Part shown: positions 1-21,125 of the stretch, one piece after another
How the letters are laid out: each line of letters opens with the position of its first letter
How positions within the stretch are numbered: position 1 is the stretch's first letter
Source of the DNA: a virus
Length of the DNA stretch: 21,125 nt
Reading direction: 5' to 3' (one strand)
Virus record (IMG/VR): IMGVR_UViG_3300028388_005621
Coordinates: 1-21,125 of that record
The notes under the pieces: model-generated
What the model was told of the DNA's origin: nothing
What the model saw: the letters and a program-made list of their open reading frames with translations, nothing else
Databases searched by the model: none
Program-made: the position numbers and the translations under genes

Positions 1-2
1 CC

Positions 3-1716: not shown

Positions 1717-1760
1717 TCGCACAAACAACCACTTTTTTTAACCAATAATTGAATACAATT

Positions 1761-3266: not shown

Positions 3267-3296
3267 GATAATTGGATTGGAACTTGGAAATACCCT

Positions 3297-3328
3297 GAGA
3301 GAGATCTGATTTTTATCAGGTCTCTTTC
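3297..3328 (+). terminator. Intrinsic terminator after the capsid gene
   Basis: An inverted repeat pairs 3297-3310 with 3315-3328 around a TTTT loop. The 11-bp core (agagatctgat with atcaggtctct) contains one G-U pair, and the stem can extend to 14 bp. It is followed by a weak T-rich run (tatttat). It lies 30 bases past the capsid stop and before the next gene, so it probably limits read-through from capsid transcription. Confidence 0.75.
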
Positions 3329-3355
3329 TATTTATAACGCAAACTCAATATTAAA

Positions 3356-3793: not shown

Positions 3794-3807
3794 TAAAAAC
3801 CACCACC

Positions 3808-4596: not shown

Positions 4597-4601
4597 TAGC
4601 C

Positions 4602-5414
4602 ATGCCACAAGCAACAGTAGACCAAACTAGTCCAAATTTAGCACAGCAAGCCAATGTGGAGCTCGTTCTTAACGACTTCGAGGCTAGCGTGTGGAATAAG
4701 GGTTACGAGGTCGTCCATGAAAAAGCGTTGCGATGCCCATGCAAGCAAAAAGGAGGTGACAACCGAAGTGCTTGCAAGAATTGTCTTGGTAGCGGCTGGT
4801 TATTCATCAATCGCACCAAGACAAGAATGGTATCTCAGTCGATGAATCTGCGCAAGAATTTCAAAGACTGGAGTGAGGAGGATATGGGTAATATTAGCAT
4901 AACTGCAATTGCGCGTGATAAGTTAGGATACATGGATCGCATTACATTATTGGATGCGACCACCTACTTTTCACAGATCATATATCCCGTATACAATGGG
5001 ATTAAAGATACCTTTACAGCGCGATGCATATACGAGCCAATTGCTGTTGAGGATGCGTTCTTGTTTGATGGCACCGATAATGGATTGAAGCGACTTGCTC
5101 AAGGCACAGATTTTACTGTAGCTAGTAACGTCCTGACATTTAGTGCCGAAATTCGTCAAAAGTATTCTAATGCCGCAGTTAGTGTGCGCTATTCGCATAA
5201 TCCAGCATTTCACGTTATTGATATGACGAGGGAGGCAATTGCAAGTCGAACGACAGCTAACGAAACAGGCGTTACTAGCGTATCGCAATTTCCGATACAT
5301 GCTATTGCTCGTAGAGCGCATTACATTTTCGACAGTGCCAATGTATATGGCAATGATGGTAATCAAAACGAACTGATCGACAACTCATACACAACTGATG
5401 TTTGTACCGATTGA
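4602..5414 (+). CDS. Neck-region virion protein with zinc-ribbon-like Cys cluster
   Basis: A 270-residue protein I cannot assign to a named family. Near residues 44-63 it has RCPCKQKGG and then ACKNCLGSGW, two Cys pairs (CxC and CxxC) about ten residues apart. The second resembles the CxxCxGxG unit of DnaJ zinc fingers, so a bound zinc ion is likely. The remainder is beta-rich (DRITLLDATTYFSQIIYPVYNG; VLTFSAEIRQKYSNAAVSVRY), as expected for a structural protein. It lies between the connector and a tail-completion-like protein, so a head-closure or neck role is likely. The final 17 bases overlap the next gene, which suggests translational coupling. The function is inferred from position only. 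Confidence 0.6.
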   Translation: MPQATVDQTSPNLAQQANVELVLNDFEASVWNKGYEVVHEKALRCPCKQKGGDNRSACKNCLGSGWLFINRTKTRMVSQSMNLRKNFKDWSEEDMGNISITAIARDKLGYMDRITLLDATTYFSQIIYPVYNGIKDTFTARCIYEPIAVEDAFLFDGTDNGLKRLAQGTDFTVASNVLTFSAEIRQKYSNAAVSVRYSHNPAFHVIDMTREAIASRTTANETGVTSVSQFPIHAIARRAHYIFDSANVYGNDGNQNELIDNSYTTDVCTD

Positions 5415-6207
5415 CATAGATGCTCGCGACCTGGCCATGGAATTTTCTCTTTCCAATGGCCAGGTTAATGATATGATGGAGTTTACTATCCACGAGATCA
5501 CTGCAGCGTTTGCACGTGAATGGGATAGCTATGCACGTCGGGAATTACGTAGTACGCGCGATCTATATCGACGCAGCTTGATCGTTGGCGAAGAGGGCTT
5601 TTTGACTGGCTACGTAATGCTGGTTGGAGATCTACCCAATATGCTCGAGCAGGGCGCTGGATCCTGGGATATGAAAACTAATTTCGCCAGATCCGGCAAG
5701 GTTCGCTACAACAAGAATGGGGGCTGGTATCTAACCATCCCATTTCGCTTTGCTACACCAGGAGCGCTTGGCGAAAACGAGGCTTTCTCCAACATATTGC
5801 CAAAAAGCGTATACAAGGCGTTACGTACTGTAGGCGATACACGCACATCTGTGCAAGATTCAAGACAATATGGAGGAGGTCTATCTTTGAGCGATATTCC
5901 AGCTCAGTATAGAGCTCCAAAATCTCGGGCTGCATTTAGCGATGTAAAGGAAAAAACGACATTCAGCGAATACAAACACAAAACCAGCATATATCAAGGC
6001 ATCATTCGCAACAAGAAAGTTTACGAACGAGCCGATCAATCACAATACACATCGTTTCGTCGAGCTAGCTCGAATAGCGATCCTAATAGCTGGATCCACA
6101 AAGGATTTTTGCGTCGCAACTTTGCAGGTCGTGCCCTAGAATCAATGCCGATGGATACAGTAGTAGATAATGCAATTGATGACTTTTTAAGCGCTCAAGG
6201 CTTTTAA
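5398..6207 (+). CDS. Neck / tail-completion protein (HK97 gp10-like position)
   Basis: A 269-residue protein. The N-terminal part is helical (MMEFTIHEITAAFAREWDSY, then ARRELRSTRDLYRRSL), followed by a beta region with the phrase PNMLEQGAGSWDMK, a pattern seen in phage neck proteins where an 'E-x-G' turn precedes a conserved aromatic. The second half is Ser/Arg-rich and less ordered. In gene order it falls between head-closure and tail-terminator candidates, where HK97 gp10-type joining proteins occur. The ATG at 5398 overlaps the previous gene by 17 bases; an alternative in-frame ATG at 5437 would drop 13 residues and lies within an inverted repeat (5431-5463). Function is moderately supported. 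Confidence 0.6.
   Translation: MFVPIDIDARDLAMEFSLSNGQVNDMMEFTIHEITAAFAREWDSYARRELRSTRDLYRRSLIVGEEGFLTGYVMLVGDLPNMLEQGAGSWDMKTNFARSGKVRYNKNGGWYLTIPFRFATPGALGENEAFSNILPKSVYKALRTVGDTRTSVQDSRQYGGGLSLSDIPAQYRAPKSRAAFSDVKEKTTFSEYKHKTSIYQGIIRNKKVYERADQSQYTSFRRASSNSDPNSWIHKGFLRRNFAGRALESMPMDTVVDNAIDDFLSAQGF
5431..5463 (+). repeat. Inverted repeat over the alternative start of the neck gene
   Basis: The arms ctggccat (5431-5438) and atggccag (5456-5463) are perfectly complementary, with a 17-base loop. The left arm includes the first bases of the alternative ATG at 5437. In mRNA this would hide that ATG, favouring initiation at 5398. It is not followed by a T-run, so it is not a terminator. It may be chance. 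Confidence 0.35.
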
Positions 6208-6208
6208 T

Positions 6209-6874
6209 ATGATTATTGTACCGCAATTACTCGTTGAAGATGCAGTTCGCAAACTGCTATCAATTCTTCGCAAAGACTTGCTCAACAAGCCATGGCAGGA
6301 AACCATCTTGTACACCTTGTGGAGTGAGACAGACCGCTTTGGCGTAGAGTATGCAGAAGAGGTTCGAGACCTATTCTCACGCAAAGAGGGCGAGAATTCG
6401 CGCTTTATTGATGTGCGATTATCATTTGATGCCGAACGAGCCAACATACCAACGATTCACGTAACTGTTCCTACAGATGAAGAAAAAGCGCCATTCCTCG
6501 GAAACAATCAAAATGGCTATGGCGGCGAAACTCTTTCAAATGGGAGTGAGTATCGAGATATGTATTCGCGCATGTTTACTGCACGAGTTTCGCTGGTAAT
6601 TACCTCAGACAATGCACATGAGTGTATGTTGATATACGAGACAATTCGCGCATTGTTGATCTCAATCATCCCCGTGATCACGCTGGGAGGTTTTGAAAAC
6701 GCACGATTGTCTGGACAGGACTTAATGCTTAATCAAGACCTCGTGCCACCAAACATATTTATCCGTTCAATATCCTTGACTGGTGATTATTTGATTAAAG
6801 TTCCGGATATTGTGACTCGTCAGATCGGCCTTAGCCTATTAAATGTCGTTGGCACACCAAAAGAATCATTATGA
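6209..6874 (+). CDS. Probable tail terminator / tail completion protein
   Basis: A 221-residue protein. It contains FIDVRLSFDAERANIPTIHVTVPTDEE early on, then SLVITSDNAHECMLIYETIRALL in the second half. The latter resembles phage tail terminators, which have a beta strand followed by a long helix over an 'S-x-N-x-x-E-x-x-x-I-Y' segment and cap the tail at the neck. It directly precedes the sheath gene (apart from one small gene), the usual location. It starts one base after the previous stop and its final bases overlap the next start as ATGA. The assignment is by pattern and position. Confidence 0.6.
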   Translation: MIIVPQLLVEDAVRKLLSILRKDLLNKPWQETILYTLWSETDRFGVEYAEEVRDLFSRKEGENSRFIDVRLSFDAERANIPTIHVTVPTDEEKAPFLGNNQNGYGGETLSNGSEYRDMYSRMFTARVSLVITSDNAHECMLIYETIRALLISIIPVITLGGFENARLSGQDLMLNQDLVPPNIFIRSISLTGDYLIKVPDIVTRQIGLSLLNVVGTPKESL

Positions 6875-7104
6875 GTGTAAAAAAAATTAATGCCGTGCAA
6901 TATTGCGGCGTTCTTGGCTTGGATAATCGCAAGCGTTTTGCCGCTCAACGTCTTTTCAAAGACCACCTCCAAACTGTCGACGATTGGGGTGAGACCTTCT
7001 ATGAAGTTGGTCTAATCGAAGAAAAGCCCGCAAAGCAGATCAAGACGAAGCCAGTAAAGAAACGTATTGCCGATGAGGCTCCACCAAAAACAGAAGATAA
7101 ATAA
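6871..7104 (+). CDS. Small basic protein of unknown function
   Basis: A 77-residue protein. Residues 1-48 appear folded (AVQYCGVLGLDNRKRFAAQR, then TVDDWGETFYEVGLIEE). Residues 50-77 are a Lys/Pro-rich tail. The first part could be a short helical element, but I do not recognise a family. It is linked by ATGA overlap to the upstream gene and by TAATG overlap to the sheath gene, so it should be translated with them. A similar small gene before the sheath is common in contractile-tail modules, but no role can be assigned from the sequence. Confidence 0.6.
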   Translation: MSVKKINAVQYCGVLGLDNRKRFAAQRLFKDHLQTVDDWGETFYEVGLIEEKPAKQIKTKPVKKRIADEAPPKTEDK

Positions 7105-8744
7105 TGGCAACCGAAGTTTTATTTAACGGACGAGTTATTGCAGAACCAGGTGTTTATACCGCCATTAAAAGCGGCATCCAAGCACCTCCACGCGAGCTAG
7201 ACTTTGGTCGCGTTCTGATTATTGATACCGGAAGCGGAGCCACCTGGGGTGGTGAAGGGATTAGCGGCGAGCTTACTAATGGCTTGGCTGCTGTTCGTGC
7301 GTTCGATACTATTGGCGAGTTTCGCGAGTACGTTCGTGGAGGCGTTTGGTGGTCTAATGCCGAAGGTCTTTTCCGTCCAAACGGTCCTGGAAGTATTGGT
7401 GTTAGCCGTGTATATTTTGTGCGTGCAGCTACTACCACCGCATCGACAATGACAATGACCTTTGCCAATGGTGCCGGTCCTACTGTCGATCTTGACATCA
7501 AGACTAAGCGCGAAGGACTTGGATCTGTAGGTGCTCAAACAGCAGGCAACAATCTGTATAAGGGCTATGCGATGACTCTTGAAGCTGGTGTTATCGACAC
7601 AGCAAAATTCATCATCAAGTTCTGGGAAGGAACCTGGAAAGGCCAGCATACTGACAACACCGATCTTGATGGCGTATCACAAGCGGATTCCGCACCACGC
7701 CTCATCACTCAATCTGACGAGATCGACACGTTGGCTGAATTCATTACCTGGGCCAATAGTGATGTTGCATTTGACAACTACTTCTCCATTGACGGCACTC
7801 CAAGTAGTGATATTGTTACCGCAGACATCGCCTCCAACGCTGGAAATAATCTAGCGGTTGGTGGTACGGAAACATATAACGATGCCGGATTGACGGCCGT
7901 GCTTGATGCCATTGGAGAGCTGGATTACAACTTTTTACTTTCTGATCAGTATGGATCAGATGCCGCATCAGCCAACAACCTATCCATGTTGGCACATATT
8001 ATCGAGGAAGCGAAATATCGCAAGTATCTGGTAGTAGGTGGTGGCGCAGGTTCTTCGGAATTTGCATCCCAATCTGTTGCCAGTGCAGCTACCCTAGATA
8101 GTGCTCGCGCTATTCTCGTTCATGGAGCCAGCAAGAAAAATAACGGTAGTGCGTCAGCTAACACGTTGCGCACATACACTTCCCTACATAAGGCATCGTA
8201 TGTTCTAGGTCGCATTTGCGGTCTTGAGCCACAAACACCTCCAACATTTAAGTTCATCGACATAGATGGAGAGGCTCACGTGATGAGCGAAAAAGAGCGC
8301 CGCCAGGCTTTATCGGCTGGTGTACTTCATACGCGCTACGACGTTGATTTGGGAGGATACGTCATCAATCAGGGCATCAATACGCTGCAGAACAATTCGC
8401 AGGTGGTCAATGAAGACGGCACGTCACACCTGATCCAGGTAATGCGGATCACGTCGCAGTTGGAGCGCGAAATCATGCTGAATGCCAAAGTGCAGTTGCT
8501 CGGAACTCAGGACTTAGGTCCAAACCGCAATACTCTTGGCCAAGATGATGTAACGCGCTGGCTGGAAGGATACTTGACGCGTAGAACAGCCACAGATCTG
8601 GAAGATAACCTAATCATTCGTTTCGGCGATATCAATGTTGCCACGCAAGGCGATGCATATTACATCACTTTCGGATTTGTGCCAAACTTCGAGGTCAACA
8701 AGCTGTTCTTCACCGGCTTCATCTTGGACACAAATTTATCATAA
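7104..8744 (+). CDS. Contractile tail sheath protein
   Basis: A 546-residue protein that should polymerise around the tail tube and contract on infection. The N-terminus EPGVYTAIKSGIQAPPRELDFGRVLIIDTG is typical of phage sheaths, as is FVRAATTTAS shortly after. The C-terminal domain contains RITSQLEREIMLNAKVQLLG, then DVTRWLEGYLTRR and IRFGDINVATQGDAYYITFGF, matching the conserved sheath domain that contacts the tube. A variable middle domain (about 130-310) probably faces outward. Length is normal for family members (about 400-700). The start overlaps the preceding stop as TAATG, and the tube gene follows after 16 bases. Codon use is richer in C-ending codons than in the neck genes, consistent with high expression. 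This gene defines the phage as having a myovirus-type tail. Confidence 0.93.
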   Translation: MATEVLFNGRVIAEPGVYTAIKSGIQAPPRELDFGRVLIIDTGSGATWGGEGISGELTNGLAAVRAFDTIGEFREYVRGGVWWSNAEGLFRPNGPGSIGVSRVYFVRAATTTASTMTMTFANGAGPTVDLDIKTKREGLGSVGAQTAGNNLYKGYAMTLEAGVIDTAKFIIKFWEGTWKGQHTDNTDLDGVSQADSAPRLITQSDEIDTLAEFITWANSDVAFDNYFSIDGTPSSDIVTADIASNAGNNLAVGGTETYNDAGLTAVLDAIGELDYNFLLSDQYGSDAASANNLSMLAHIIEEAKYRKYLVVGGGAGSSEFASQSVASAATLDSARAILVHGASKKNNGSASANTLRTYTSLHKASYVLGRICGLEPQTPPTFKFIDIDGEAHVMSEKERRQALSAGVLHTRYDVDLGGYVINQGINTLQNNSQVVNEDGTSHLIQVMRITSQLEREIMLNAKVQLLGTQDLGPNRNTLGQDDVTRWLEGYLTRRTATDLEDNLIIRFGDINVATQGDAYYITFGFVPNFEVNKLFFTGFILDTNLS

Positions 8745-8760
8745 ACCATAACTAACAACG

Positions 8761-9240
8761 ATGGCTAGTAAAACAATGAGTGCGCCACTGGCGATAATTA
8801 AGAAAGATGGTAAGCCAATTGGCCTGATGAAAGACATCAGAGTCACTGAGACCTTCCGTCGTCAGAAAGTTACGGGCTTGGGGCGCTTGATTCCACGCGA
8901 ACGTCCTCTTACTGACTGGGATGGACAGTTTTCGTGCGGCTTCTATACAATCAACCTCAAGGAGACTGGCATTCCAGACGCTGTACAGCGTGATGTGCCA
9001 GGCATCCAAGAATGGATTGACAACGTCCTCCTCCAAGAGGATGGTGTTGACGTTACGATCTTCAAAAAGGTCAAGGACGTGCTTGATACCGAGACTGGGC
9101 TGATCACCCCCAAATTGGAGGAATTCGCTACAATTCGCGCCGCTTTCGTTGAGCGTGATTCTTTTGATATAAGCGAAGGTCAAGTCTCCGGACAGAACCA
9201 AGACTTCGTGTACAACCAACCGATCCTGTACTTCATGTAA
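8761..9240 (+). CDS. Tail tube protein
   Basis: A 159-residue protein that should form the inner tube through which DNA is ejected. It shows the tube-family pattern: PLAIIKKDGKPIGLMKDIRV, then VTGLGRLIPRERPLTDWDG with the conserved Gly-Leu-Gly and Pro. The rest is alternating beta strand and a helix (VQRDVPGIQEWIDNVL), as in tube beta-barrels. Length is typical (about 140-180). It immediately follows the sheath gene, the standard arrangement. It is followed by a strong terminator, which fits a high-copy product. The leader ahead of the ATG is A/C-rich without a Shine-Dalgarno sequence. Confidence 0.92.
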   Translation: MASKTMSAPLAIIKKDGKPIGLMKDIRVTETFRRQKVTGLGRLIPRERPLTDWDGQFSCGFYTINLKETGIPDAVQRDVPGIQEWIDNVLLQEDGVDVTIFKKVKDVLDTETGLITPKLEEFATIRAAFVERDSFDISEGQVSGQNQDFVYNQPILYFM

Positions 9241-9283
9241 GCAGGATTAAGTTGGAGAGTACGATAGTTTCAACGATATTGGG

Positions 9284-9320
9284 TAGCGATTTGCAAGTAA
9301 TTGCGATCGCTATTCTTTTT
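9284..9320 (+). terminator. Intrinsic terminator after the tail tube gene
   Basis: Arms 9284-9296 (tagcgatttgcaa) and 9301-9312 (ttgcgatcgcta) pair with a one-base bulge around a GTAA loop, followed by ttcttttt at 9313-9320. This is a classic Rho-independent terminator. The right arm includes the octamer GCGATCGC (9303-9310). Confidence 0.88.
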
Positions 9321-9336
9321 ATACAAAACGTGACAA

Positions 9337-9708
9337 ATGGACATTAAAAGAGTTGTAAATTTTGAGATTGGTGGAAACCCGTACCAGCTAACCATTCCAA
9401 CCAATCGCACACTTATCGCAATTGAGGTCAAAAAAGCCCAATTGTCGAAAGATCAGTATTTCACCATGATGCGCACGCCAACCATATTGGCAACCACTGT
9501 ATTGGATCTTATTGATGCGTATTGCTGGCTAACAATAGCTTGTCCTCAATTCCAGGACGATACGCGCATTAACGATATCTTGGATCTTGATGTGCTAGAT
9601 TCACAGTCGATTCTCAAGGCATATCGTGAACACATTGCACCCTGGATTGCAAGTTGGCAAGAAGCATTGTCGGCTGTAGCAAAAGAGGCTGTAGATGAGG
9701 AGAAATAA
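9337..9708 (+). CDS. Tail assembly chaperone, first gene (G-like)
   Basis: A 123-residue acidic protein. It opens with DIKRVVNFEIGGNPYQLTIP, a beta-rich phage-tail-chaperone-like start, and continues with a helical part (TILATTVLDLIDAYCWLTIA) and a Glu/Ala-rich end. It sits between tube and tape measure, the universal position of the tail assembly chaperone that coats the tape measure during tube growth. It is followed by a second small gene in a different frame, overlapping by 14 bases, as in lambda G/GT-type pairs. The assignment is mainly by position. Confidence 0.7.
   Translation: MDIKRVVNFEIGGNPYQLTIPTNRTLIAIEVKKAQLSKDQYFTMMRTPTILATTVLDLIDAYCWLTIACPQFQDDTRINDILDLDVLDSQSILKAYREHIAPWIASWQEALSAVAKEAVDEEK
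9684..9688 (+). promoter_or_regulatory. Shine-Dalgarno-like site for the second chaperone gene
   Basis: AGAGG lies six bases before the ATG at 9695. Most genes in this window have no such site, so this one supports independent initiation rather than frameshifting. Confidence 0.5.
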
Positions 9709-10027
9709 CGATCTACGCCAAATGGTCGTTGAGTGGAACCTTCGATTTCCGCTAGATGCTTGGTGGCGCAAAAAACACAAAGTGCCGTTCGGAAGTGAGC
9801 GGCACCTTCAAGTTTCGCAATTAGACATTGCGTTTGAATTCATGGAGGATCAGCTCTTCAATACAGAGCAAAAAGAAGAAGACCAATATGCGTACGAGCC
9901 AGGCATGCGTAATTGGCTTAAGCCTCGCGAACGATTTGAGGAGATGAAGTCGAGCGATCTTACAGGAGTGAATGATCTGAATGACATTCGCTTTGACGAC
10001 AATGGCAACATATTGTTAAAAAAGTAA
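9695..10027 (+). CDS. Tail assembly chaperone, second gene (T-like)
   Basis: A 110-residue protein with FPLDAWWRKKHKVPFGSERH, a phrase seen in second-position tail-chaperone proteins of large phages, then helical ISFEFMEDQL-like sequence (DIAFEFMEDQLFNTEQKEE). It is in the +1 frame relative to the first chaperone gene. A TAG at 9692-9694 closes this frame directly upstream of the ATG, so only 14 bases overlap. It ends three bases before the tape-measure start. The position and motif support the call; whether a fusion product is ever made is unresolved. Confidence 0.7.
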   Translation: MRRNNDLRQMVVEWNLRFPLDAWWRKKHKVPFGSERHLQVSQLDIAFEFMEDQLFNTEQKEEDQYAYEPGMRNWLKPRERFEEMKSSDLTGVNDLNDIRFDDNGNILLKK

Positions 10028-10030
10028 TAT

Positions 10031-11797
10031 ATGGAACGCAATACTAAAATAGTCTTTTCCGCCCGTGACGCAGGGGTCGAGTCGATGATTAATAGATTGC
10101 GTTCCAGCTCAACTACTTTAGCACGAGACATGATTCGTGACGCCTCTCAACAGGCTGAAACGGGTCGTGAGATGGTAGATATCATCGAGAATCAGATCCG
10201 TGCTATTCAACGACGCAACCAGCTTGACGCAGCACAAACATCGTTGGCTTTACGTCAGCGTTTGGGTGCTGGCGACATATCTCAAGAGGAATTCACTTCC
10301 CAGACAGGCGCAATGCGCCTTGCCAATCAAGAAGATAATCTTCAAATTCAAGTTTTACGCGATATTCTTGCCGAATTACAAGAGCAGGCTGAGGATGAGT
10401 TGCGTAGCGATCGCCAACTTGTTGAGCAGCAGGTTGCAGAGCAAAGACGTCAATCGCTGCAAGATGGGGATGATGAGTTCGCGTTTTTCCGCCGTAAGGT
10501 GCAAGAGTCTGCGATTGACGGTCCCGAAGAGGAGAGGAGTGCAGGAGGAGCTGGTGTACGCAATGCTGGTGTTTTTGCAGTCAATCAAGCTGGTCGTGCG
10601 GTAGTATCTCGAAATGAGGTCTATGCAGTAGCTGGATTACTGGCTGCATTGCCGTTAGTCGGTGGCGCTCTTAGTGGATTGGTAACAAAAGCATTCAGTC
10701 AAGCTGAACAACTGCAAGGCGCCAGAGGGCAACTGCAAGGACTATCAGGAACACCCATCGGTAATATAGGTGGAGGTGCAGTGCGCTTTGGAACGACAAT
10801 GTCGGAGTTCATCGCACAATATGTGCAGCCATCTATTAGAGCAAGAGGGCAGTTTGCCGGCGCTGAGCAGCTTGGCATGGATGTATTGTCACTTGAGCGT
10901 GGCTTGGGACTATCCTCTGCTGCATTGCAAGGATCATTGCGTGCAACACGAAACGATTTTAGCGATCCTTCGCTTATCGGTGTTGTTGGAACTCTAGCCA
11001 CTCAACTCATTTCAAGTGGCGCAATTCCACAGGAAGATTTCACTCGCATCGAAGAGTATCTCGAAATAGCCAATCAACTAGCTAGCCAACAAAACATGCG
11101 TCTTGATGGTGTAAATAGTAGCTTAAACGCATCTATTATTGGCCGATTTGCTGGTTTAGGTGGCAGCTTTAGCGATCCACAGGTGTTGGGTAATATTGTG
11201 CAAGCGTTAGATCAGGGTCTGCAAAATCCAGGCTCTGACTACGCACAAGCTATGCAGTTCTCAGTGTTGAGTCGTATGAATCCTAATGCGACACGATTCG
11301 ACCTTATGGCAATGCAAGAGCGAGGCATTGCACAACCAGGACTTTTATCTGGTCTTTTTGAAATGATCAGTGGATCGACTGAGGATGTGATGATGGAGCA
11401 GGTCAAAGCACTATTTCCACAACTATCATTCTCGCAAGCCCAGCGATTGACGCGTGCGTATCGCGATGGATCCCTGGACCTATCCTTTACACAAGGACAA
11501 GCTGTCAATGATGCGGAATTGCGTACACGTTTGTTGGGCAGAGCAGGTGCAACGACCGGATATCTTCAACGCGAAACTGCAGAAATCGACAATGTATTAG
11601 CCCAAAAAGGAGATGAGCTGTCGCGACAGGTTGGAACGCTAGTTCAATCGCTTGGTGGTATTGAAGGTGCTGCAGGAGGATTGATGGATATAGGTATTAA
11701 TTTGACATCAGCGATCAATAAGCTCACTGGCCAGTTTGATGTACTGCATCGCGCTGGTCTCGGCAAGTCAAACAAGATATTTAAAGCGAATGAATAA
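10031..11797 (+). CDS. Tape measure protein
   Basis: A 588-residue protein. Residues 1-165 are highly charged and helical with strong coiled-coil character (EMVDIIENQIRAIQRRNQLD; then VEQQVAEQRRQSLQDGDDEF). Near residues 193-215 an apolar segment (YAVAGLLAALPLVGGALSGLV) could span a membrane. The rest is Gly/Ala/Gln-rich helix. This pattern, with location between chaperone and baseplate hub, fits a tape measure, which sets tail length and later enters the cell envelope. At about 1.5 angstrom per residue it would specify a tail of roughly 90 nm, short for a myovirus. No lytic domain is visible. It overlaps the hub gene by 8 bases. Confidence 0.8.
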   Translation: MERNTKIVFSARDAGVESMINRLRSSSTTLARDMIRDASQQAETGREMVDIIENQIRAIQRRNQLDAAQTSLALRQRLGAGDISQEEFTSQTGAMRLANQEDNLQIQVLRDILAELQEQAEDELRSDRQLVEQQVAEQRRQSLQDGDDEFAFFRRKVQESAIDGPEEERSAGGAGVRNAGVFAVNQAGRAVVSRNEVYAVAGLLAALPLVGGALSGLVTKAFSQAEQLQGARGQLQGLSGTPIGNIGGGAVRFGTTMSEFIAQYVQPSIRARGQFAGAEQLGMDVLSLERGLGLSSAALQGSLRATRNDFSDPSLIGVVGTLATQLISSGAIPQEDFTRIEEYLEIANQLASQQNMRLDGVNSSLNASIIGRFAGLGGSFSDPQVLGNIVQALDQGLQNPGSDYAQAMQFSVLSRMNPNATRFDLMAMQERGIAQPGLLSGLFEMISGSTEDVMMEQVKALFPQLSFSQAQRLTRAYRDGSLDLSFTQGQAVNDAELRTRLLGRAGATTGYLQRETAEIDNVLAQKGDELSRQVGTLVQSLGGIEGAAGGLMDIGINLTSAINKLTGQFDVLHRAGLGKSNKIFKANE

Positions 11798-14348
11798 TTT
11801 GCCATACATATATTATACGCATCGCGATACGGAAATCGATAGCCTTGAGGAATTTGTAGATCAGCAAGGCTTATCTCTTGTGCGCTCTATGACAGTTGCA
11901 GAGGTGCTAGCCTATACTGATGAACAGGGCATTCGCAATATTGATCGTGTATGGATGGCATACGATCGCTATCAAAAGAAGCAATATCAAGGGGAGTATG
12001 ATTTGGGCACCTTATCGTATCTAGCTTACAATACAGTGCTTGCGTTGCCTAAGGATCGCTTGTTTCGCGAAACTCTTGGTATTACTGGCGTCAATCAGGT
12101 TGCAGATGTCAACACATTCAATGCTTTCATCGCTGATCGTTATAAGACGTTGCTCACAGATGCGCGCTTCGTGCGTGCAGCAGATTATACGAACGGTGCA
12201 GAGATCAACTCCGTCAAGCAGATAGGAGCTAATATTAGCGTGTGGATTTGGAGCAGAGCGTTCAATGAAAATCAGCCTGGCCAGATGATTAACGTCTCGC
12301 CGTTTGTTACATCGTGCAATACGCGCGTAGATGATAATGGAGGCAACTTCAATCTCGAACTAGCACCAATTATTGGTCGCAAAAATGCATCAGGCAAGTG
12401 GTCTTTAGCGCCATTTCACATTTCGCAGGATAGCGAAAACTATACGGCGACAGCGCATTTGAATCGCTTGGTCGACGATCAAATCCAGCGGGAATCATTC
12501 TTATTTCACCAAATTCTAGGCAACAACGACCTGGTTTTTGTTCGCTTTGAAGAGTTGCAAGTTGAAGATGATCGTGATCAAAGCGACTTTACAGTTCCGA
12601 TTACCAATTTGCCATCCAAAGAGAATGCGGTTCGTGTGTATGATATGATTGGCTTGGTAGACAATAGCTCGCTCGATGTTGGTGCCGATCAAAATAGTGT
12701 GCAGATCAATATTACTGGACGAGATCTATCCAAAGTGCTTATTGATGATGGAAGCTACTTTTACCCACTGCAATTCGCTCAAAATGTATTTATCAATCCC
12801 GATGAGGATCGGCGCTTAATAAATCGTCTAGCCATAGATGGCAGTTTTGTATTGCAAAGCGCATTTGCATTCAGATCGGTGCGATTTTCACTGCAATTCA
12901 TTATGAATCACCTGGCGAACATGGGTGTTGTTGCTGATGATTTATTCGCATCTTATGGTGATAAGCGCACGACCGTGTATCGTGTTGAAGATACCGAACC
13001 AAACAGCTCATCGCAAACTCAGCGCGTTCTAAGCAACATTCGTGCCGAGGTAGAAGAAGAAATTCGTCAAGCCATTTTGCAAAGCGGAACACAACCGACA
13101 GATGCACTTGTACGTAATGTATTCGATCAAGCAAGTGGATTTGTGGCTAACGCCGTTCAACAGCGAGTATTGACGTTTAATGGGGGTGCTTTGAGTGGAT
13201 ATCGAACACATAGCTATCTTGGTGGAGGAGTGACGGCAAACACAACGCCGTCATTTTTGACACAATACTCAATCTATTTGTTCGCCCGCATTACCTCTAA
13301 GGTGCAGGGGGAGCTTGAAGGGGAGGGAGATCCATCTGTTCTTCCAACATATATTTTCAATCGTCTATATGAGTATGTGCGTAGCAGTGCAGGAGATGAT
13401 GTGGGCGAAAATCTCATCGAAACTCCAGCCAACGGCATTTGGCAGATCATCAAGCTGGTCATCGACTCAAGCGTGGCTGATCGTCGCTTAGCCGACTCGT
13501 CAATATCGCAACCAGATGGATCGCTAATCAACCAATTCTGGAAGGTGTGTCAAAAGCCCTTTGTTGAGTTTTATACCGACACGTATGAGGATTTGTTCTA
13601 CTTCATCGTTCGCCAACCACCACTGAATAGGTCGGCCATTCATTCATTTTTCGATGATGGATTAGCACTTACGATAGAAAATAGTGAGGTCGTTAGTGAG
13701 CAGTTAAGTTTCACCGATCAAGAGGTGTATAGCTTCTACGAATTAAAGCCGCAAGGCCTATTTGCAGGAGCTGGAAGTGAAGTTTCGCTAGCTTATATTC
13801 CGATCATTTACTTTCCACAATATGCCGATATTTGGGGTACACGACGATTAAGTGTTGTTTCCTCATATTTGCCTTATTCTGGAATAATCGGAGAGCAGAG
13901 CGACGAAGATTCTAATTACTTGATCGAGCAAACGGCTGAGGATCTCAAATATGTAATTGATACCAATTGCTATCTGCCTTTTACACGCAGCGGCACAATC
14001 ACGCTACTTGGTGATCGCAGAATCAAGAAGGGCACATGGATCCGTTACGCTCCAACGAACGAAATATTTTATGTTACAGCAGTCGATCAGTCATACAGCA
14101 TTAGCATGAATTCGATTGATCGCTTGACTATTCTAACTGTTGAACGTGGTATGGTTGAAAGGTACGTTTTCAACGAGACACTCAATTACTTCAACATAGT
14201 AGATACCGAGATTATTAAGGATTTTATCGTGACAAGTTTAACGGGCACGCAAGAGAATATTCAACGCATTAGTCTTGAGATTCAGCGCAATTTTGCAGTG
14301 AACCAAGGGGCATTTGATTTCTTTTTGCAGCGCAAACAATTTGATTAA
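11790..14348 (+). CDS. Baseplate hub protein (gp27-like)
   Basis: An 852-residue protein that should form the trimeric hub joining tail tube to spike. The start at 11790 (ATGAATAA overlap with the tape-measure stop) is preferred over an in-frame TTG at 11736 and ATG at 11739 inside the tape-measure gene. Residues about 145-325 (ANISVWIWSRAFNENQPGQM; then RVYDMIGLVDNSSLDVG and ITGRDLSKVLIDDGSYFYP) and residues 736-773 (TITLLGDRRIKKGTWIRYAP; then IFYVTAVDQSYSI) match the pattern of large-phage hubs, the latter resembling the gp27/gpD domain that binds spike and tube. The region near 385-580 is long and variable. It is directly upstream of the spike gene with TAATG overlap. The protein is longer than T4 gp27 (391) and P2 gpD. 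Confidence 0.78.
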   Translation: MNNLPYIYYTHRDTEIDSLEEFVDQQGLSLVRSMTVAEVLAYTDEQGIRNIDRVWMAYDRYQKKQYQGEYDLGTLSYLAYNTVLALPKDRLFRETLGITGVNQVADVNTFNAFIADRYKTLLTDARFVRAADYTNGAEINSVKQIGANISVWIWSRAFNENQPGQMINVSPFVTSCNTRVDDNGGNFNLELAPIIGRKNASGKWSLAPFHISQDSENYTATAHLNRLVDDQIQRESFLFHQILGNNDLVFVRFEELQVEDDRDQSDFTVPITNLPSKENAVRVYDMIGLVDNSSLDVGADQNSVQINITGRDLSKVLIDDGSYFYPLQFAQNVFINPDEDRRLINRLAIDGSFVLQSAFAFRSVRFSLQFIMNHLANMGVVADDLFASYGDKRTTVYRVEDTEPNSSSQTQRVLSNIRAEVEEEIRQAILQSGTQPTDALVRNVFDQASGFVANAVQQRVLTFNGGALSGYRTHSYLGGGVTANTTPSFLTQYSIYLFARITSKVQGELEGEGDPSVLPTYIFNRLYEYVRSSAGDDVGENLIETPANGIWQIIKLVIDSSVADRRLADSSISQPDGSLINQFWKVCQKPFVEFYTDTYEDLFYFIVRQPPLNRSAIHSFFDDGLALTIENSEVVSEQLSFTDQEVYSFYELKPQGLFAGAGSEVSLAYIPIIYFPQYADIWGTRRLSVVSSYLPYSGIIGEQSDEDSNYLIEQTAEDLKYVIDTNCYLPFTRSGTITLLGDRRIKKGTWIRYAPTNEIFYVTAVDQSYSISMNSIDRLTILTVERGMVERYVFNETLNYFNIVDTEIIKDFIVTSLTGTQENIQRISLEIQRNFAVNQGAFDFFLQRKQFD

Positions 14349-15262
14349 TGAACGCAGTAAAGCAAGTTGGAGTAGGCAACACTCGACCAACAATTTCAAT
14401 TGGCTATGTGATCTTACCATCAGGTGAGGTGCGCAGCGATTACGTTGCTAGATGCTTGCGGACTAATACGATTAGTGTTTTTACTGAGAACAACGAAGTG
14501 CTCAACAATATTAAGATCACTCAGGCATTAGAGGGGCACATTGTCTTTCCTAATGGCGAAGGGGAATTGGGTAGTGCCGTAGTACTTGCCAACATTGCGG
14601 CACACAATCAGCCGATTGCAGTCGGAATATTGCCAAAGCAAGATGAGCTGGACGATCACGACGAGGATGAGGTTGTAGTGGGAAGAAAACATCGTTGGGG
14701 CGTTAATGAAATTCGTCAAGACGCTAAGAATGGACGCACAACAATTGCTATTACATCACGCAATAGCACTGGAGGTCGATTGGACGTTTTATTGCGCAAT
14801 CCTTATGATTCCGCACGTTATAATGTCGAAGTGCAGGGCGAAATTACAGTAGACGGTGCAGGAAGAATCTTCTTACGATCAGGAGAGTCCGTACACTTTT
14901 TGATTGAAGATGTTGAGACTGACACTCAGACCAATATTATGTATGTGGCTGGTGAAGGATTCTCATATATCGATGAATTCGGCAACACACTTTCAATGAC
15001 TGACGGCAATGTTGCAATAAATGGTGAGGCGATAGCTATTGGAGAGGATGGTCTTGAGCCTGCAGTAAAAGGTGACGAGCTCTACAACCAATTGCAAGCC
15101 AACAAAGCGCGTCTTGATGCATTAATTGACGCAATCACCAACGCCGTTCCTGTGCCAAGTGATGGTGGATCTGCGTTAAAAACTGCAATTGTAGCTGCAG
15201 TATCTGCGCTACCATCAGAAGACTATTCCAATATTCGCTCATCCAAGGTGTCGTTGGAATAA
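14348..15262 (+). CDS. Baseplate spike / membrane-puncturing protein (gp5/gpV-like)
   Basis: A 304-residue protein. Residues 1-120 carry an OB-fold-like start (VGNTRPTISIGYVILPSGEV; then GHIVFPNGEGELGSAVVLAN) as in gp5 and gpV spikes. The middle (160-235) is beta-rich with repeated glycine turns, consistent with a beta-helix or needle. The C-terminal end has the widely shared phrase PAVKGDELYNQLQANKARLD followed by NAVPVPSDGG and EDYSNIRSSKVSLE, seen at the end of many phage spike proteins. It is coupled to the hub gene by TAATG and lacks a lysozyme domain; the separate amidase gene that follows may fill that role. Confidence 0.8.
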   Translation: MNAVKQVGVGNTRPTISIGYVILPSGEVRSDYVARCLRTNTISVFTENNEVLNNIKITQALEGHIVFPNGEGELGSAVVLANIAAHNQPIAVGILPKQDELDDHDEDEVVVGRKHRWGVNEIRQDAKNGRTTIAITSRNSTGGRLDVLLRNPYDSARYNVEVQGEITVDGAGRIFLRSGESVHFLIEDVETDTQTNIMYVAGEGFSYIDEFGNTLSMTDGNVAINGEAIAIGEDGLEPAVKGDELYNQLQANKARLDALIDAITNAVPVPSDGGSALKTAIVAAVSALPSEDYSNIRSSKVSLE

Positions 15263-15313
15263 CGATTGATTTATAGGAGAAAAAGCACGATATTTGCAAC
15301 TAAATTCGTACCA

Positions 15314-16000
15314 ATGGATTATTCAAAAATACCGCAACTCAATACAGCTGACATTATTCAAGTACCGTTTCCGCGAGATCAGTATATCCCGAGTGAGACG
15401 AAAAAGAGTCAAATCGTATTGCACCACACAGTAAGTCCAAGTTTTTCTGCGTCTGGAGATATTGCGTGGTGGAAGCAGACAAGAGCTCGAGTGGCGACCT
15501 GCATCATCATTGATGGTAAGGGGCGCATTCACCAGCTTTTCAGTTCAAAATATTGGGCATATCATTTGTATGTATCGTCGCCACGCAATAAAGTAGCGAC
15601 AAAGTTAAAAGCGCGCAGCAATGATGTTGCGTTAAATCGAGGATCTATTGGGGTTGAGCTGGACAGTGCAGGAGGACTGACATACAAGAATGGGCGTTGG
15701 TATACAGCGTATGGAAGGCAGATCTCAAAAACGCGCGTTCAAGAATATCCTGATGGATATCGGGGCTATTATGGCTTTGAAAAATATTACCCACAGCAAC
15801 TTGCAGCACTATGGCAGTTGCTAAAGTATTGGGAACAGCATTATCCTCATATTCCACTGCAGTATCGTGATGAAATATGGGATGTAGATCGTAACGCATT
15901 GACAGGCGTGCCTGGATTGTACGCGCACACGAGCTATCGCACTGATAAGTCCGATTGTCATCCAGATCCAGGCCTGATTGAAATGCTAAAACAACTATAA
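15314..16000 (+). CDS. Tail-associated N-acetylmuramoyl-L-alanine amidase
   Basis: A 228-residue protein that should cut the amide bond between muramic acid and the peptide stem of peptidoglycan. It has the amidase_2/PGRP pattern: QIVLHHTVS with His37 or His38 as first zinc ligand, ATCIIIDGKGRIHQLFSSKYWAYH, GSIGVELDSAGG, and YAHTSYRTDKSDCHPDPG with His205 and Asp214 or Cys215 as the other likely ligands, and Lys212 matching the catalytic lysine of T7 lysozyme. No signal peptide or wall-binding domain is visible. Lying inside the baseplate genes, it is more likely virion-associated, helping DNA entry, than the main endolysin. The start is uncertain: a TTG at 15266 would add 16 residues. An AGGAG at 15275-15279 lies too far from the ATG at 15314. 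Confidence 0.85.
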   Translation: MDYSKIPQLNTADIIQVPFPRDQYIPSETKKSQIVLHHTVSPSFSASGDIAWWKQTRARVATCIIIDGKGRIHQLFSSKYWAYHLYVSSPRNKVATKLKARSNDVALNRGSIGVELDSAGGLTYKNGRWYTAYGRQISKTRVQEYPDGYRGYYGFEKYYPQQLAALWQLLKYWEQHYPHIPLQYRDEIWDVDRNALTGVPGLYAHTSYRTDKSDCHPDPGLIEMLKQL

Positions 16001-16731
16001 TGCCAACACCTGCACAAATACGATATCGCGGTCTTGTTGAGACCTTAGGACGAGCGACAGTTAATGCGCTATTTCCGAAGGATTTTGAGTACTATATGAT
16101 TGCATTCGAGCTGACAGACTCGAAGGATCGCGTTGTCGATTATTTTGTGCTACCTGTAATGCCAAAATCACTCAATCAATCTCAACAATCGCTGACCAGT
16201 ATCCGCAAGACTGCAGGTGGTATTGTGACGATTGAAACCAATACTTTCGTACCAGTCAATATTTCGTTGAGTGGTACGTTTGGACGTCAATTGCGAGCTT
16301 TGATCGGGAATACAGCGGCAAACTTTACAGCACTTGCTTTTTCGACAAAAAGTGGTGTTTTTAACGAGACGTTCACAAGCAAGCTTGTTGAAAAGGTCAA
16401 TGTGTTCGATCCGCAAGTGAAGACTGGATATGGCGCGACAAAGATTTTAGAGTCGATGCTAAGCAAGAGTCGCACATTTGATGAGTTTGGCAACCCATAC
16501 AAGCTCTATATGTACAATCCTGCATTTGGAGACAGTTGGCTTGTAAGAGTGAATTCACAGCGCTATCATCAAGATGAGGCAACAAATATGCTGTGGCATT
16601 ACGATATTGAACTCACTGCAATTGCTCGTGCAGCTCAAGCAGGTTCCAAAAAGCGACTAGCGCCATTGGGATTTAGTGTTGTGCAGGAAGCAATTGGTAA
16701 TACAGTACAAGTGATAAAAGGCCTATTATGA
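16000..16731 (+). CDS. Baseplate structural protein
   Basis: A 243-residue protein. A clear phrase VLPVMPKSLNQSQQSLTSIR, then GGIVTIETNTFVPVNISLSG, is typical of baseplate proteins in contractile-tail phages that share a beta-rich fold with distal tail proteins, such as the Bacillus PBSX XkdP/XkdQ-region genes. The C-terminal half contains NSQRYHQDEATNMLWHYDIEL, again in beta strands. It overlaps the amidase stop as TAATG and the next start as ATGA. It probably links tube end, hub and wedges, but which T4 or P2 counterpart it equals cannot be determined from the sequence alone. Confidence 0.6.
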   Translation: MPTPAQIRYRGLVETLGRATVNALFPKDFEYYMIAFELTDSKDRVVDYFVLPVMPKSLNQSQQSLTSIRKTAGGIVTIETNTFVPVNISLSGTFGRQLRALIGNTAANFTALAFSTKSGVFNETFTSKLVEKVNVFDPQVKTGYGATKILESMLSKSRTFDEFGNPYKLYMYNPAFGDSWLVRVNSQRYHQDEATNMLWHYDIELTAIARAAQAGSKKRLAPLGFSVVQEAIGNTVQVIKGLL

Positions 16732-17654
16732 TACCAGACGGTACATTGGACGATTTTTACGAAATCACTGGATTTGACATAGGTGCTTATTTCAGTGACT
16801 TTGCTGTGTTCTATAATGCAGCATTTGCGTCGTTTGTCGACTATTATTCTGGTGACCTTGAGATCGTGCCATCCAAATATTTGTTGGAGTACGAGCGTTT
16901 AGCGAAGTTGGAGCGCGAATTGAAGGCGGTATTGGCCTATAAGCGTGACGACCTCTCTAATGCCAAGTATTGGGAGCTTGTAATTGTTGTTGAACAGGTC
17001 AGTAAGAGCCTTGACACGATTGCTAATCTTGACAAGTGGCAGCGCTCTAGTCGTCAGAATGCGTTTTTTGCCTCTACTGCGCAAGTAAATGCGACATTGA
17101 AGCAAGGCGTTACGTTGGAGAAATTCACGGTAGATGTGTTAGGATCCAGTGATGTTGACGATTGGTCCAATATTGCAATCCGCAATGATCTTGCGGAAGA
17201 TGGATATACGGTAGACGATGTATTACTACTAAAAGCTGAATTTCGCGGCTCATATTCATCTGTCCAGATTCAATCGGTCGTCGACGTGATTAATGGAGAG
17301 AATGTATACGGGAAAGACATCAATCGCCAATTGGCTTTTGTAGACAATGATCTTGAAGTCCTGACGCCTAAGGAGTCTATGGTGCAGGCGGTAGAGATAC
17401 TGGCATCGCTAACCAAAGGAGACAATCCAGCATTTCCTAGCGATGGCATTCAAGCTGGAGTTGGAGCGAATCGCAATCTTACCAGTACTACGTTTCCTGT
17501 GGTATTTCGTCAGATGGCAGATGTATTCCGCACCGATGATACACTGAAAGCATTCGTCTTACGAGATGTGTATATAGAGCAAGATTCTGTATTTTACGAG
17601 TTTGAGGTGCAAACGCGTCTCGACGAACTACTAACGACAAAAGTGCGCATATGA
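16728..17654 (+). CDS. Baseplate wedge protein with gp25-like C-terminal domain
   Basis: A 308-residue protein. Residues 1-195 form a helical N-terminal part I do not recognise (LLEYERLAKLERELKAVLAY). Residues about 198-308 have the gp25-like pattern: NDLEVLTPKESMVQAVEIL, GDNPAFPSDGIQAGVG, then helical VFRQMADVFRTDD and strand RDVYIEQDSVFYEFEVQTRL. T4 gp25 is 132 residues and joins wedge to sheath; here a long extra domain precedes it. The gene is upstream of baseplate J, the same order seen in many contractile systems. Overlaps as ATGA on both sides indicate coupling. Confidence 0.72.
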   Translation: MIPDGTLDDFYEITGFDIGAYFSDFAVFYNAAFASFVDYYSGDLEIVPSKYLLEYERLAKLERELKAVLAYKRDDLSNAKYWELVIVVEQVSKSLDTIANLDKWQRSSRQNAFFASTAQVNATLKQGVTLEKFTVDVLGSSDVDDWSNIAIRNDLAEDGYTVDDVLLLKAEFRGSYSSVQIQSVVDVINGENVYGKDINRQLAFVDNDLEVLTPKESMVQAVEILASLTKGDNPAFPSDGIQAGVGANRNLTSTTFPVVFRQMADVFRTDDTLKAFVLRDVYIEQDSVFYEFEVQTRLDELLTTKVRI

Positions 17655-18850
17655 TCACCACAATAATGACACAAGAGGAGTTGTTTGACTTGTTTGCCGA
17701 AACACTTCTTAACAATACTAGTAAGGTCACCAAGATTAGCCGTCATAGTGCGCTATCTGGGATTGGCTATGGAGTAGGTGCTGTAGCGCAGCGTGCGATG
17801 AAGGATATCGCTCTAGTCGAGTCGCACTTATTGCCTGAAAATGCGTTTGGATCTCACCTGGACGCTATTGCTGCACGCACTGGAGTTGGTGCTCGTTTTG
17901 GCGCAAGTGGATCTTCCACATACATACGTCTAGTTGGCGCAGTAGGAACAACCTATTCCAAAGGCACACACACATTTTCTGGCAATCACGGTATTGTGTT
18001 TGATCTCGATCATAGTGTGGCAATCGGATCTGCTGGATACACCTATGCCAAAGTAAGTAGCACTACTACTGGAGTTGGAACAAATGTTGATCCATTGTCG
18101 ATAACAACGATAAATACTGCACCTGCAGGACACGTATATGTGATTAACGAATACGAAGCCACAGGAGGGCGTGATAGCGAGAGTGATGCTGATTTCCGCG
18201 ATCGAATTCGCTCTTATGCAAATATTGCAGCTCGTGGCACTCTTGCATTCATCCATCAGGTGATGCTGCAGACCAATTCTGATATTTTGCGTGTATTCTA
18301 TCAAGGCACCAATAGTGCAGGGCAAAGTATTTTGCGAGTTGCCACCCAAAATGGTGCAGATCTGTCTCCAAGCGAGCTTGAAGCATTAGCTAGTAACGTG
18401 CAAGAGTATGTCTCGGTGGCGGATCTGCAGCCCTATGGCAGTTCTGCTCGTGGCTTTGTTATTGAAAACGTGCAGTGGCAACCTGTTGATATCTCTTTCC
18501 GCGTTGTACTGCAAGACAACGCAGACAACGATGAAGTTCGCAAGCTAATTCAAGCGCGAATCTCCAAGTATTTCGATGTGCGATCTTGGGATGCGAACAA
18601 GCGAGTAGAGTGGGATGATTTATTGCAAATAGTTAAGGCTACTACTGGCGTAAAATATGTGTTGGATACATTTTTTGTTCCTAATCAGGATATTCAAGTG
18701 GATGAGGGCAAAATTCCCAGAGTGCGTGGATTTTTGATGTTAGATGCGAGTGGAGCTCTGCTGAGTGGCGTAAACGGAACCCTCAATCCATTTTACTATC
18801 CAATAGAAGCAGATTTCAACTTTCAAGCATCAATTCTAAGAACACTGTAA
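17651..18850 (+). CDS. Baseplate J-like protein (gp6-like wedge)
   Basis: A 399-residue protein that should form part of the baseplate wedge ring. The baseplate J pattern is clear: a helical N-terminus (AVAQRAMKDIALVESHLLPE), GSHLDAIAARTGVGARFGAS, a beta region (TYSKGTHTFSGNHGIVFDLD), then TGGRDSESDADFRDRIRSYA, the family's strongest hallmark. The final part (VQWQPVDISFRVVLQDNADN; RKLIQARISKYFDVRSW) matches the C-terminal domain. Length is normal for P2 J, Mu gp47 and larger forms. It starts within the previous stop (ATGA); an internal ATG at 17666 is an alternative. It is the last certain baseplate gene here. Confidence 0.9.
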   Translation: MITTIMTQEELFDLFAETLLNNTSKVTKISRHSALSGIGYGVGAVAQRAMKDIALVESHLLPENAFGSHLDAIAARTGVGARFGASGSSTYIRLVGAVGTTYSKGTHTFSGNHGIVFDLDHSVAIGSAGYTYAKVSSTTTGVGTNVDPLSITTINTAPAGHVYVINEYEATGGRDSESDADFRDRIRSYANIAARGTLAFIHQVMLQTNSDILRVFYQGTNSAGQSILRVATQNGADLSPSELEALASNVQEYVSVADLQPYGSSARGFVIENVQWQPVDISFRVVLQDNADNDEVRKLIQARISKYFDVRSWDANKRVEWDDLLQIVKATTGVKYVLDTFFVPNQDIQVDEGKIPRVRGFLMLDASGALLSGVNGTLNPFYYPIEADFNFQASILRTL

Positions 18851-18851
18851 C

Positions 18852-18977
18852 ATGGACGAGCAAGTATTGACACCAACAGAAACAACAACCAATATAGTAA
18901 CAACCACTATTACGGTAACGACGACATTTCAGCCGTCCGATCCTGGTAGTGATAATTCGATAACTGTTTGTAGCTAA
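18852..18977 (+). CDS. Small Thr-rich protein (41 residues)
   Basis: A short open frame of 41 codons ending at TAA 18975-18977, starting one base past the baseplate J stop. The product begins MDEQVLTPTETTTNIVTTTI and continues with TVTTTFQPSDPGSDNSITVC. About one third is Thr, in a beta-prone pattern. It fills the gap between two genes exactly and has no Shine-Dalgarno sequence, like its neighbours. It may be a small fibre or collar peptide, or a leader for the following adhesin, but no function can be assigned. Confidence 0.45.
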   Translation: MDEQVLTPTETTTNIVTTTITVTTTFQPSDPGSDNSITVCS

Positions 18978-18989
18978 AATAACGATATC

Positions 18990-19592
18990 ATGGCAGTATG
19001 CACACTAGATTTATTTGGAGAATTAGGCGGCAGCCCAGATACAGGTGGTTACTGGGAACAAACCAGTGGTCCGCAATCCATCACACTTTCCGGAGGGCAC
19101 CTTGGCACTGCAAGTTTCTTGAATGCAGCGGCTGGAACCTACACATTTGACTATAAATTCAATGAGGTAGATGCTCCAGCAACCGTCACAGTGACCGTTG
19201 GCGATCGTCCAGATCCTGGGAACAATACCTCCCTCAATACTACTGAGGGAGCTGGCGTAATAACTCTACTCGACCAACTTGATGGAACTCCTGATGCTGG
19301 TGGCTCATGGACGGTTTTGCCGGCAATTCCTGCAGGAACATTTAATGCTGGAGCTGGGACGTACGATCCTGCTAGTGGCGATGGATCGCTCGAAGGTACC
19401 GTATATGTATTTACGTATAGCGTTACCGAACCTGGAAGTGATGCAGATTGTGCGTGCTGCACTCAAACTGCAGATCTAACAATTACTGTATTCCAAGGTG
19501 GAACTGTTGGTACAGATGCATCATCAGAAACAGAAACTTCTGATGGTTCCAAACTCTTAGAACCGAAAGGCAGAACCTTGGTTGTTGGATAA
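18990..19592 (+). CDS. Adhesin-like repeat protein, truncated at the chimeric join
   Basis: A 200-codon open frame of which only about the first 170 residues appear genuine. It holds two tandem repeats of the same type: DLFGELGGSPDTGGYWEQTS (residues 7-26) and TLLDQLDGTPDAGGSWTVLP (near 91-110), each followed by a Gly/Ala turn, a GTYTF-like strand and a TVTVTV or LTITVF end. This D-x-L-G-G-x-P-D-x-G-G-x-W pattern is known from large surface proteins, especially of Bacteroidota. In a phage after baseplate J it is likely a receptor-binding or fibre protein. After TVFQGG (about 19500) the pattern stops and the remaining residues are the reverse complement of the other strand's gene, so the 3' end is not real. 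Confidence 0.65.
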   Translation: MAVCTLDLFGELGGSPDTGGYWEQTSGPQSITLSGGHLGTASFLNAAAGTYTFDYKFNEVDAPATVTVTVGDRPDPGNNTSLNTTEGAGVITLLDQLDGTPDAGGSWTVLPAIPAGTFNAGAGTYDPASGDGSLEGTVYVFTYSVTEPGSDADCACCTQTADLTITVFQGGTVGTDASSETETSDGSKLLEPKGRTLVVG

Positions 19593-21125
19593 CCATTTGA
19601 CATCTCACGAATCTGACATGTAACAGGAACTTCAGTATCCTTCTTCTGGAAGAATGCTTCAACCTTTGTAATGTACTCACCACCTTTCGCCTGTGGCATA
19701 AAGGATTGTGCAAGTGGATCCCACCATCCTACAATCTCATCACGAGTATCCTGTCTGACAACATTCTGTGTCTGAGATACTTCACGAGTTTCAACCCTAG
19801 CGTTACGAGTTGCAATGATAGTTTCTTGAACTGTGTTAAGGATACCAGTTGCAGAGTAGATGGTCTGTGCAAATGTTTCTACACTTGACGTACCATTGTC
19901 TGCATCAGATGTTAATCTGAATACACGTTCACCTGTTCTGAAACGTGGATTACCATCGATGTTTGGATTTGGAATATTGAATGTACCAATAATCTTACCG
20001 GCACCATTCGTGATCAAAGAATCTCCCAATGATCCACCGTCTGGAGTACAGTATGCACCAACATTCGTCTTATCAAAATATGCATATACCTTAGTACGAG
20101 GTTTCAAACCTGTCGCAGTAAATGTAATGTTTCTTGAGCGAATGAATGGAATAACCGCACGAGATACGATACGATCTCCTTGTGACTCTTCATCGATCTG
20201 TGGTACAACGGTAGTTTGAATACCTGTACGAGATGATACCCCCGCCTCTTGAACTGTTGAACGTTGAATAACTGGTCTAAATGGAACTTGTCTTCTTGCA
20301 CGAGCCCATGAGGTTTCTCTGAATCGTGTTGTTGCAACAGTTTCAGAAACACCAGACCACTGAGTTTGCCATGCATTCCAAACAGTACCCAAAGAGTTAC
20401 GGTTTGCAGCAAGGACTGTATCAAAGTTACCTTCACGGTTGATAATCAAATCAGGTAGACGATCAACCTCAAACCATTCGTCACCAGATGGTGACAGTGT
20501 ACAAATACCAGACCATGAGAAATTAAGAACTGGGTTCAAGTTTTCTACACGAGTCGCATAAGGCTGTTGTACAACCAACTGATGGGTATACGGTAGAGTA
20601 ACAACGTCACCAGTCTTGGCATAGTTGTCACCAGTACGATCAGCATCAGTCAAATTCTCTTCAGTGAGAGAGATACCCTTCATGTAATATTTTGGTCTAA
20701 GAACACCAGAAGACATGTCAATCGCAACACGATAGTCTGGGTGTTTGACATCACCAACAGCATGTCCTTTGAAGTTATCTACGACAAAACCAGACTTGAA
20801 TCGATCCAATCCATTAGAGTCTTGAATCTGTAATGACTGTGCTTCCTTCTCAAGTAGATTGAGAGAAGTATAGTATTCGATGTTTTGAATACGAGTCTCC
20901 AACTTGCCGATGTCACGCATCGTGTAACTTCTATTGTTTGTTCTAGACAAAGACGCATCTTCTAAAGAAATCAAGTATGGGTTCAAGTTGATAGTCGCAA
21001 GTTTCATTGCGTTTTCAAGTGGTTTAGGTGCAATTGGTTGTTCTGATGGTGAACCAGATACTAACTTGAAGTTACCCTCAGCAGTAAGGAATACCATATC
21101 AATACGTCCAAGATAATGATCAAAG
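19463..21125 (-). CDS. DUF4815-type virion structural protein of T4-like marine phages (partial at both ends)
   Basis: On the - strand the frame runs open from the right edge (FDHYLGRIDMVFLTAEGNFK) for about 553 visible codons to a stop at 19463-19465. It matches the large structural protein of T4-like cyanophages and pelagiphages: KLETRIQNIEYYTSLNLLEK, RFKSGFVVDNFKGHAVGDVK, RPKYYMKGISL, then REMSNGYPTTKVLPFGSK and SVSDDASVPT. In that family this last phrase is followed by a TFTF-type strand and a further C-terminal domain. Here it turns into 13 unrelated residues (VPPWNTVIVRSAV), so the true C-terminus is missing. The true N-terminus lies beyond the window. The product is a baseplate- or fibre-associated virion protein of unknown exact role. 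The ATG at 21097 is internal. Confidence 0.82.
   Translation of the reverse strand, partial: FDHYLGRIDMVFLTAEGNFKLVSGSPSEQPIAPKPLENAMKLATINLNPYLISLEDASLSRTNNRSYTMRDIGKLETRIQNIEYYTSLNLLEKEAQSLQIQDSNGLDRFKSGFVVDNFKGHAVGDVKHPDYRVAIDMSSGVLRPKYYMKGISLTEENLTDADRTGDNYAKTGDVVTLPYTHQLVVQQPYATRVENLNPVLNFSWSGICTLSPSGDEWFEVDRLPDLIINREGNFDTVLAANRNSLGTVWNAWQTQWSGVSETVATTRFRETSWARARRQVPFRPVIQRSTVQEAGVSSRTGIQTTVVPQIDEESQGDRIVSRAVIPFIRSRNITFTATGLKPRTKVYAYFDKTNVGAYCTPDGGSLGDSLITNGAGKIIGTFNIPNPNIDGNPRFRTGERVFRLTSDADNGTSSVETFAQTIYSATGILNTVQETIIATRNARVETREVSQTQNVVRQDTRDEIVGWWDPLAQSFMPQAKGGEYITKVEAFFQKKDTEVPVTCQIREMSNGYPTTKVLPFGSKSLEPSEVSVSDDASVPTVPPWNTVIVRSAV
19494..19510. other. Likely chimeric join of two unrelated phage sequences
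   Basis: Left of about 19500 the + strand adhesin repeat is intact; right of about 19508 the - strand DUF4815-type protein is intact. In the join each gene loses its family pattern and both run out in meaningless frame: the + strand for about 30 residues, the - strand for about 13. Strand, protein family and codon style all change here. The exact base is not resolvable by eye. Confidence 0.7.

Follow-up and report, generated by a model that had tools for sequence, protein, structure and literature searches.

An antisense gene overlap in an IMG/VR virus record very probably stems from a chimeric contig of two unrelated phages

The window analyzed here is one complete IMG/VR virus record of 21,125 bases, and near its right end two open reading frames run into each other tail to tail, which raises the question whether this arrangement belongs to a single phage genome or marks the joining of two. 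An earlier note had described a 130-base overlap at 19,463–19,592, and we recovered it exactly: the plus-strand ORF at 18990..19592 ends with TAA at 19590–19592, and the minus-strand ORF at 19463..21124 ends with TGA at 19465–19463 and is open at the contig end. The length of the overlap carries little meaning by itself, because equally long open runs are common in these frames. On the right side, open runs of at least 29 codons occurred at 30–35% of positions in two of three frames, and on the left side, open runs of at least 13 codons occurred at 48–69% of positions. Raw overlap length was dropped as evidence, since such runs are expected by chance. We read the features around the overlap as follows:

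1..19504, plus strand (all genes): Bacteroidota-type myophage segment with head protease, major capsid protein, tail sheath, tail and baseplate genes (synteny with MA9V-3, PHROG/Pfam matches, Shine-Dalgarno (SD) motif at 1 of 20 starts)
17651..18850, plus strand: baseplate J-like protein, the last left gene with clear phage homologs (Pfam PF04865, E=2e-20; 46% identity to MA9V-3)
18990..19504, plus strand: authentic portion of a PKD/Ig-like repeat gene (two repeats) belonging to the left phage, cut by the join (weak Pfam PKD match below cut-off; left-type codon usage)
19504..19505, no strand: probable chimeric junction (per-base identity to 40 distinct relatives falls from 1.0 to about 0)
19505..19592, plus strand: spurious 29-codon extension of the left ORF, on the strand opposite to the right-hand gene
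19463..19504, minus strand: spurious extension of the right ORF by 14 codons (13 residues and TGA), antisense to the gene of the left phage (matches to relatives end at residue 540)
19505..21124, minus strand: middle part (540 residues) of a T4-like virion protein of about 2,100 residues, DUF4815 or 'VrlC' type (PF16075, phrog_358; 68.8% identity to the Melnitz gene)

The break is placed most precisely by the right-hand gene. Its 540 residues matched gene MelnitzEXVC044M_166 of Methylophilales phage Melnitz, which comprises 2,128 codons, so that the window carries only the middle of the gene, cut at one side by the join and at the other by the end of the contig. A tblastn search of the right protein against IMG/VR gave 359 relatives, and among the 80 that were kept most matches ended at query residue 540. 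Another 19 ended at residue 527, because those relatives have an insertion of their own there. This insertion of about 90–100 residues in the large structural protein follows query residue 527–529 in a subset of T4-like relatives (L007–L011, L034–L036, L045, L048 and others) and carries the motif 'DGTVxMxxGSTTVTGTxTxF...'; it lies near the break point of the window yet is unrelated to the break. In all 67 relatives with a visible gene end, the gene continues for at least 444 codons past the break. At the DNA level, identity of the right gene to 40 distinct relatives was 1.00, 1.00 and 0.68 at positions 19507, 19506 and 19505, and 0.02, 0, 0, 0, 0.02, 0.02 and 0.02 at positions 19504–19498. In the codon that ends at 19505, positions one and two matched in all 40 relatives, and from 19504 on almost none matched; this collapse of identity puts the end of the right-hand sequence at 19,505, give or take a base or two. 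In a codon-by-codon comparison, the relatives read TFTFDEPVYVKDGVEYCIVL... after '...DDASVPT-', where the window reads VPPWNTVIVRSAV*.

On the left side, the longest matches of the PKD-like gene to flavobacterial PKD-like proteins extend to residue 165–168 of 171, where homology stops. Because this is also a natural domain end, the break is located less sharply here and its position rests mainly on the right-hand evidence. The suggestion that both frames lose their family pattern at about 19,500 thus agrees with our mapping, to the base pair 19504/19505 on the right and more loosely on the left. Homology switches abruptly between two unrelated genomes at one position, as is expected for a chimeric contig. 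The tail of the plus-strand ORF (residues 173–200) gave a tblastn match to the minus strand of Melnitz, which was rejected as a sign of kinship: the match is the antisense of the right gene and thereby confirms the join, not a relation.

Separate protein searches with the two parts, which had been proposed as a check, led to different phages, MA9V-3 and other phages of Bacteroidota for the left part and T4-like phages of the Melnitz type for the right. Fourteen of the 21 left frames matched Chryseobacterium phage MA9V-3 in the same order with 25–46% identity, in a collinear stretch that runs from the head protease (58) over capsid, sheath and tail genes to baseplate J (17,651), and two further frames matched only Bacteroides phage DAC16 (one of them MT835500 as well). 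In the phage collection, baseplate J matched one human faecal phage record and, apart from MA9V-3, six Bacteroides phages. When IMG/VR was scanned with single proteins (the PKD gene, baseplate J and the major capsid protein as queries), no relatives emerged; a four-sequence baseplate J alignment as query found 19 loci there, the best with 52% identity. With such syntenic head, tail and baseplate genes, the left 19.5 kb almost certainly come from an MA9V-3/DAC16-related phage of Bacteroidota, judged by protein homology and gene order. Within this group the segment is divergent, its baseplate J having at most 52% identity to any relative compared. Both MA9V-3 and the left part lack SD sites; the PKD-like gene is unmatched in MA9V-3. 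An Amidase_2 gene at 15266–16000 is flanked by tail genes; in MA9V-3 its place is taken by another gene, of about 188 codons, and the Amidase_2 gene probably encodes a tail-associated or lysis amidase that was swapped in this lineage. Baseplate J is followed at 18852–18977 by a Thr-rich ORF of 41 residues (MDEQVLTPTETTTNIVTTTITVTTTF...), for which tblastn gave no similarity; in MA9V-3, a poly-Thr stretch is encoded by a gene lying close to that place (L082:22871–23608). The two PKD-like repeats of the truncated gene align to each other, and related proteins occur in Aquimarina, Flavobacterium, Kordia and other Bacteroidota (Flavobacteriia-like repeats).

For the right 1.6 kb, the earlier assignment to a marine T4-like gene is borne out by the Pfam and PHROG families of the large structural protein and by the match to Melnitz EXVC044M, in which the gene is intact, whereas the window contains only a fragment cut at both ends. 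By these matches the piece almost certainly derives from a Melnitz-type (Methylophilales) T4-like phage of marine Proteobacteria. The cyanophage or pelagiphage identity named in the earlier note fits loosely and only for this part; among cultured phages, those of Methylophilales (OM43) in the Melnitz group are nearest.

The two sides also differ in their sequence signatures, as would be expected for a chimera. An SD-like motif was present at 1 of 20 left starts, 1 of 30 starts in MA9V-3 and 16 of 23 in Melnitz; the SD habit of the right side is that of this relative and not of the fragment itself, because the fragment has no start codon within the window. Absence of SD motifs is usual in Bacteroidota. 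The left genes had been described as unfamiliar and low in SD motifs; the latter holds and is explained by a phage of the Bacteroidota type, whereas the former does not, given the relationship to MA9V-3 and DAC16. Synonymous codon usage of the right gene differed from the left pool with a chi2 of 201, which exceeds the values of all 282 left windows of the same size (mean 61, maximum 147). By the same measure, the PKD gene resembles the left pool (40.6; mean 47.4) and not the right gene (108). Among individual codons, GGC for glycine had a frequency of 0.33 on the left versus 0.03 on the right and AGC for serine 0.19 versus 0.

No relative of either side shows the arrangement found in the window. 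None of 22 left-type records contained the right protein, and none of 22 right-type records contained the left baseplate J, with the controls for both searches recovered at E below 1e-80; since many of these records are fragments, this absence is support and not proof. A close relative with the same gene order, named beforehand as evidence against a chimera, was not among these records. At the 22 left-type loci, the ORFs 3' of baseplate J were nearly all on the same strand, and none had convincing likeness to the right gene (best E 0.036). The 28-mer spanning the junction occurred in no other IMG/VR contig, in a search that may not cover the records closest to the window. On the other hand, no close relative, with more than about 75% amino acid identity on the right or 52% on the left, was found in which either side continues intact past the break, a point that counts against the chimera.

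Features of an orderly junction had been reported as missing, and we likewise found no tRNA, no inverted repeat or strong direct repeat and no promoter or terminator beyond chance at the join, which lies in mid-gene and not at a gene boundary. A terminator-like stem at 19229–19251 (minus strand) was discarded, as it is inside the PKD gene and within chance. A long shared word that would point to the assembler as the cause was not found at the join, which is a further point against.

Taken together, we are confident that the window is a chimeric contig of two unrelated phages and that the overlap is an artefact and not biology. Bases 1–19,504 would come from an MA9V-3-related phage of Bacteroidota, and bases 19,505–21,125 would stem from a Melnitz-type T4-like marine phage and represent, in antisense, an internal portion of a large structural gene. 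Assembly, library ligation or amplification would have linked the two, in vitro or in silico. In the joined sequence, the left frame would gain 29 codons that are antisense to the right gene, and the right frame would gain 13 residues and a stop codon that are antisense to the left gene; the 130-base overlap thus arises because each truncated frame reads by chance into DNA of the other phage up to the first stop. The exact break, the different origins and the fact that chance suffices for such read-through are shown by the data; a join made outside a cell, by one or other of these steps, is an inference and the most likely origin. Chimeric contigs are common in simulated viral assemblies (11.5 +/- 3.2%, deep SPAdes; PMC4585024), and multiple displacement amplification (MDA) links molecules that are unrelated, in either orientation and frequently with hardly any complementarity or none (PMC1855051).

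The earlier note had left the choice between a chimeric contig and a recent recombination. The mid-protein break, the relatives and likely hosts of the two sides, SD and codon usage, the co-occurrence searches and the lack of a second contig with the junction are independent lines that strongly favor the chimera, and nothing positive emerged for recombination. An illegitimate recombination in nature, by which a T4-like fragment was joined to a Bacteroidota phage beside its baseplate and adhesin genes, would fit the position of the join next to a host-recognition-type gene, where phages do swap modules, and marine water could be common to both phages. However, the hosts of the relatives belong to different phyla, Bacteroidota and Pseudomonadota, so that phages of such hosts would have had to meet and been caught with both genes broken. 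The acquired piece would moreover be antisense, extend to the contig end, lack left-type codon usage and sit in an arrangement that no relative has and at a junction seen nowhere else in IMG/VR. We therefore regard this as very unlikely, and its stricter form as slightly less probable again: a true and recent event in which a T4-like proteobacterial phage recombined with a Bacteroidota phage, leaving a fresh joint by which both genes are disrupted. A natural genome, in which phages of the left type normally have such a gene after the baseplate genes and the overlap is genuine, would account for both frames being open through the overlap, but chance alone would often keep frames open over such a length, homology stops in mid-protein at one base and the gene is present in 0 of 22 left-type records, which makes this reading barely credible.

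The preferred reading, a chimeric contig, has counterparts among chimeric contigs from viral metagenomes (PMC4585024; PMC4247695), which likewise contain two unrelated genomes per contig with a sharp switch of homology. Chimeras formed during MDA (PMC1855051) are similarly sharp at the join, share little or no sequence there and link molecules in either orientation; in contrast to the window, which joins two genomes, they are mostly inversions within one molecule.

As a warning about quality, the public record should be split at 19,504/19,505. Left unsplit, it would lead to the misassignment of a marker gene of T4-like proteobacterial phages to a Bacteroidota phage, or vice versa, and to the annotation of two accidental ORF tails as protein. 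A sharp shift in SD habit together with codon usage is a cheap signal for chimeras between phages of different hosts.
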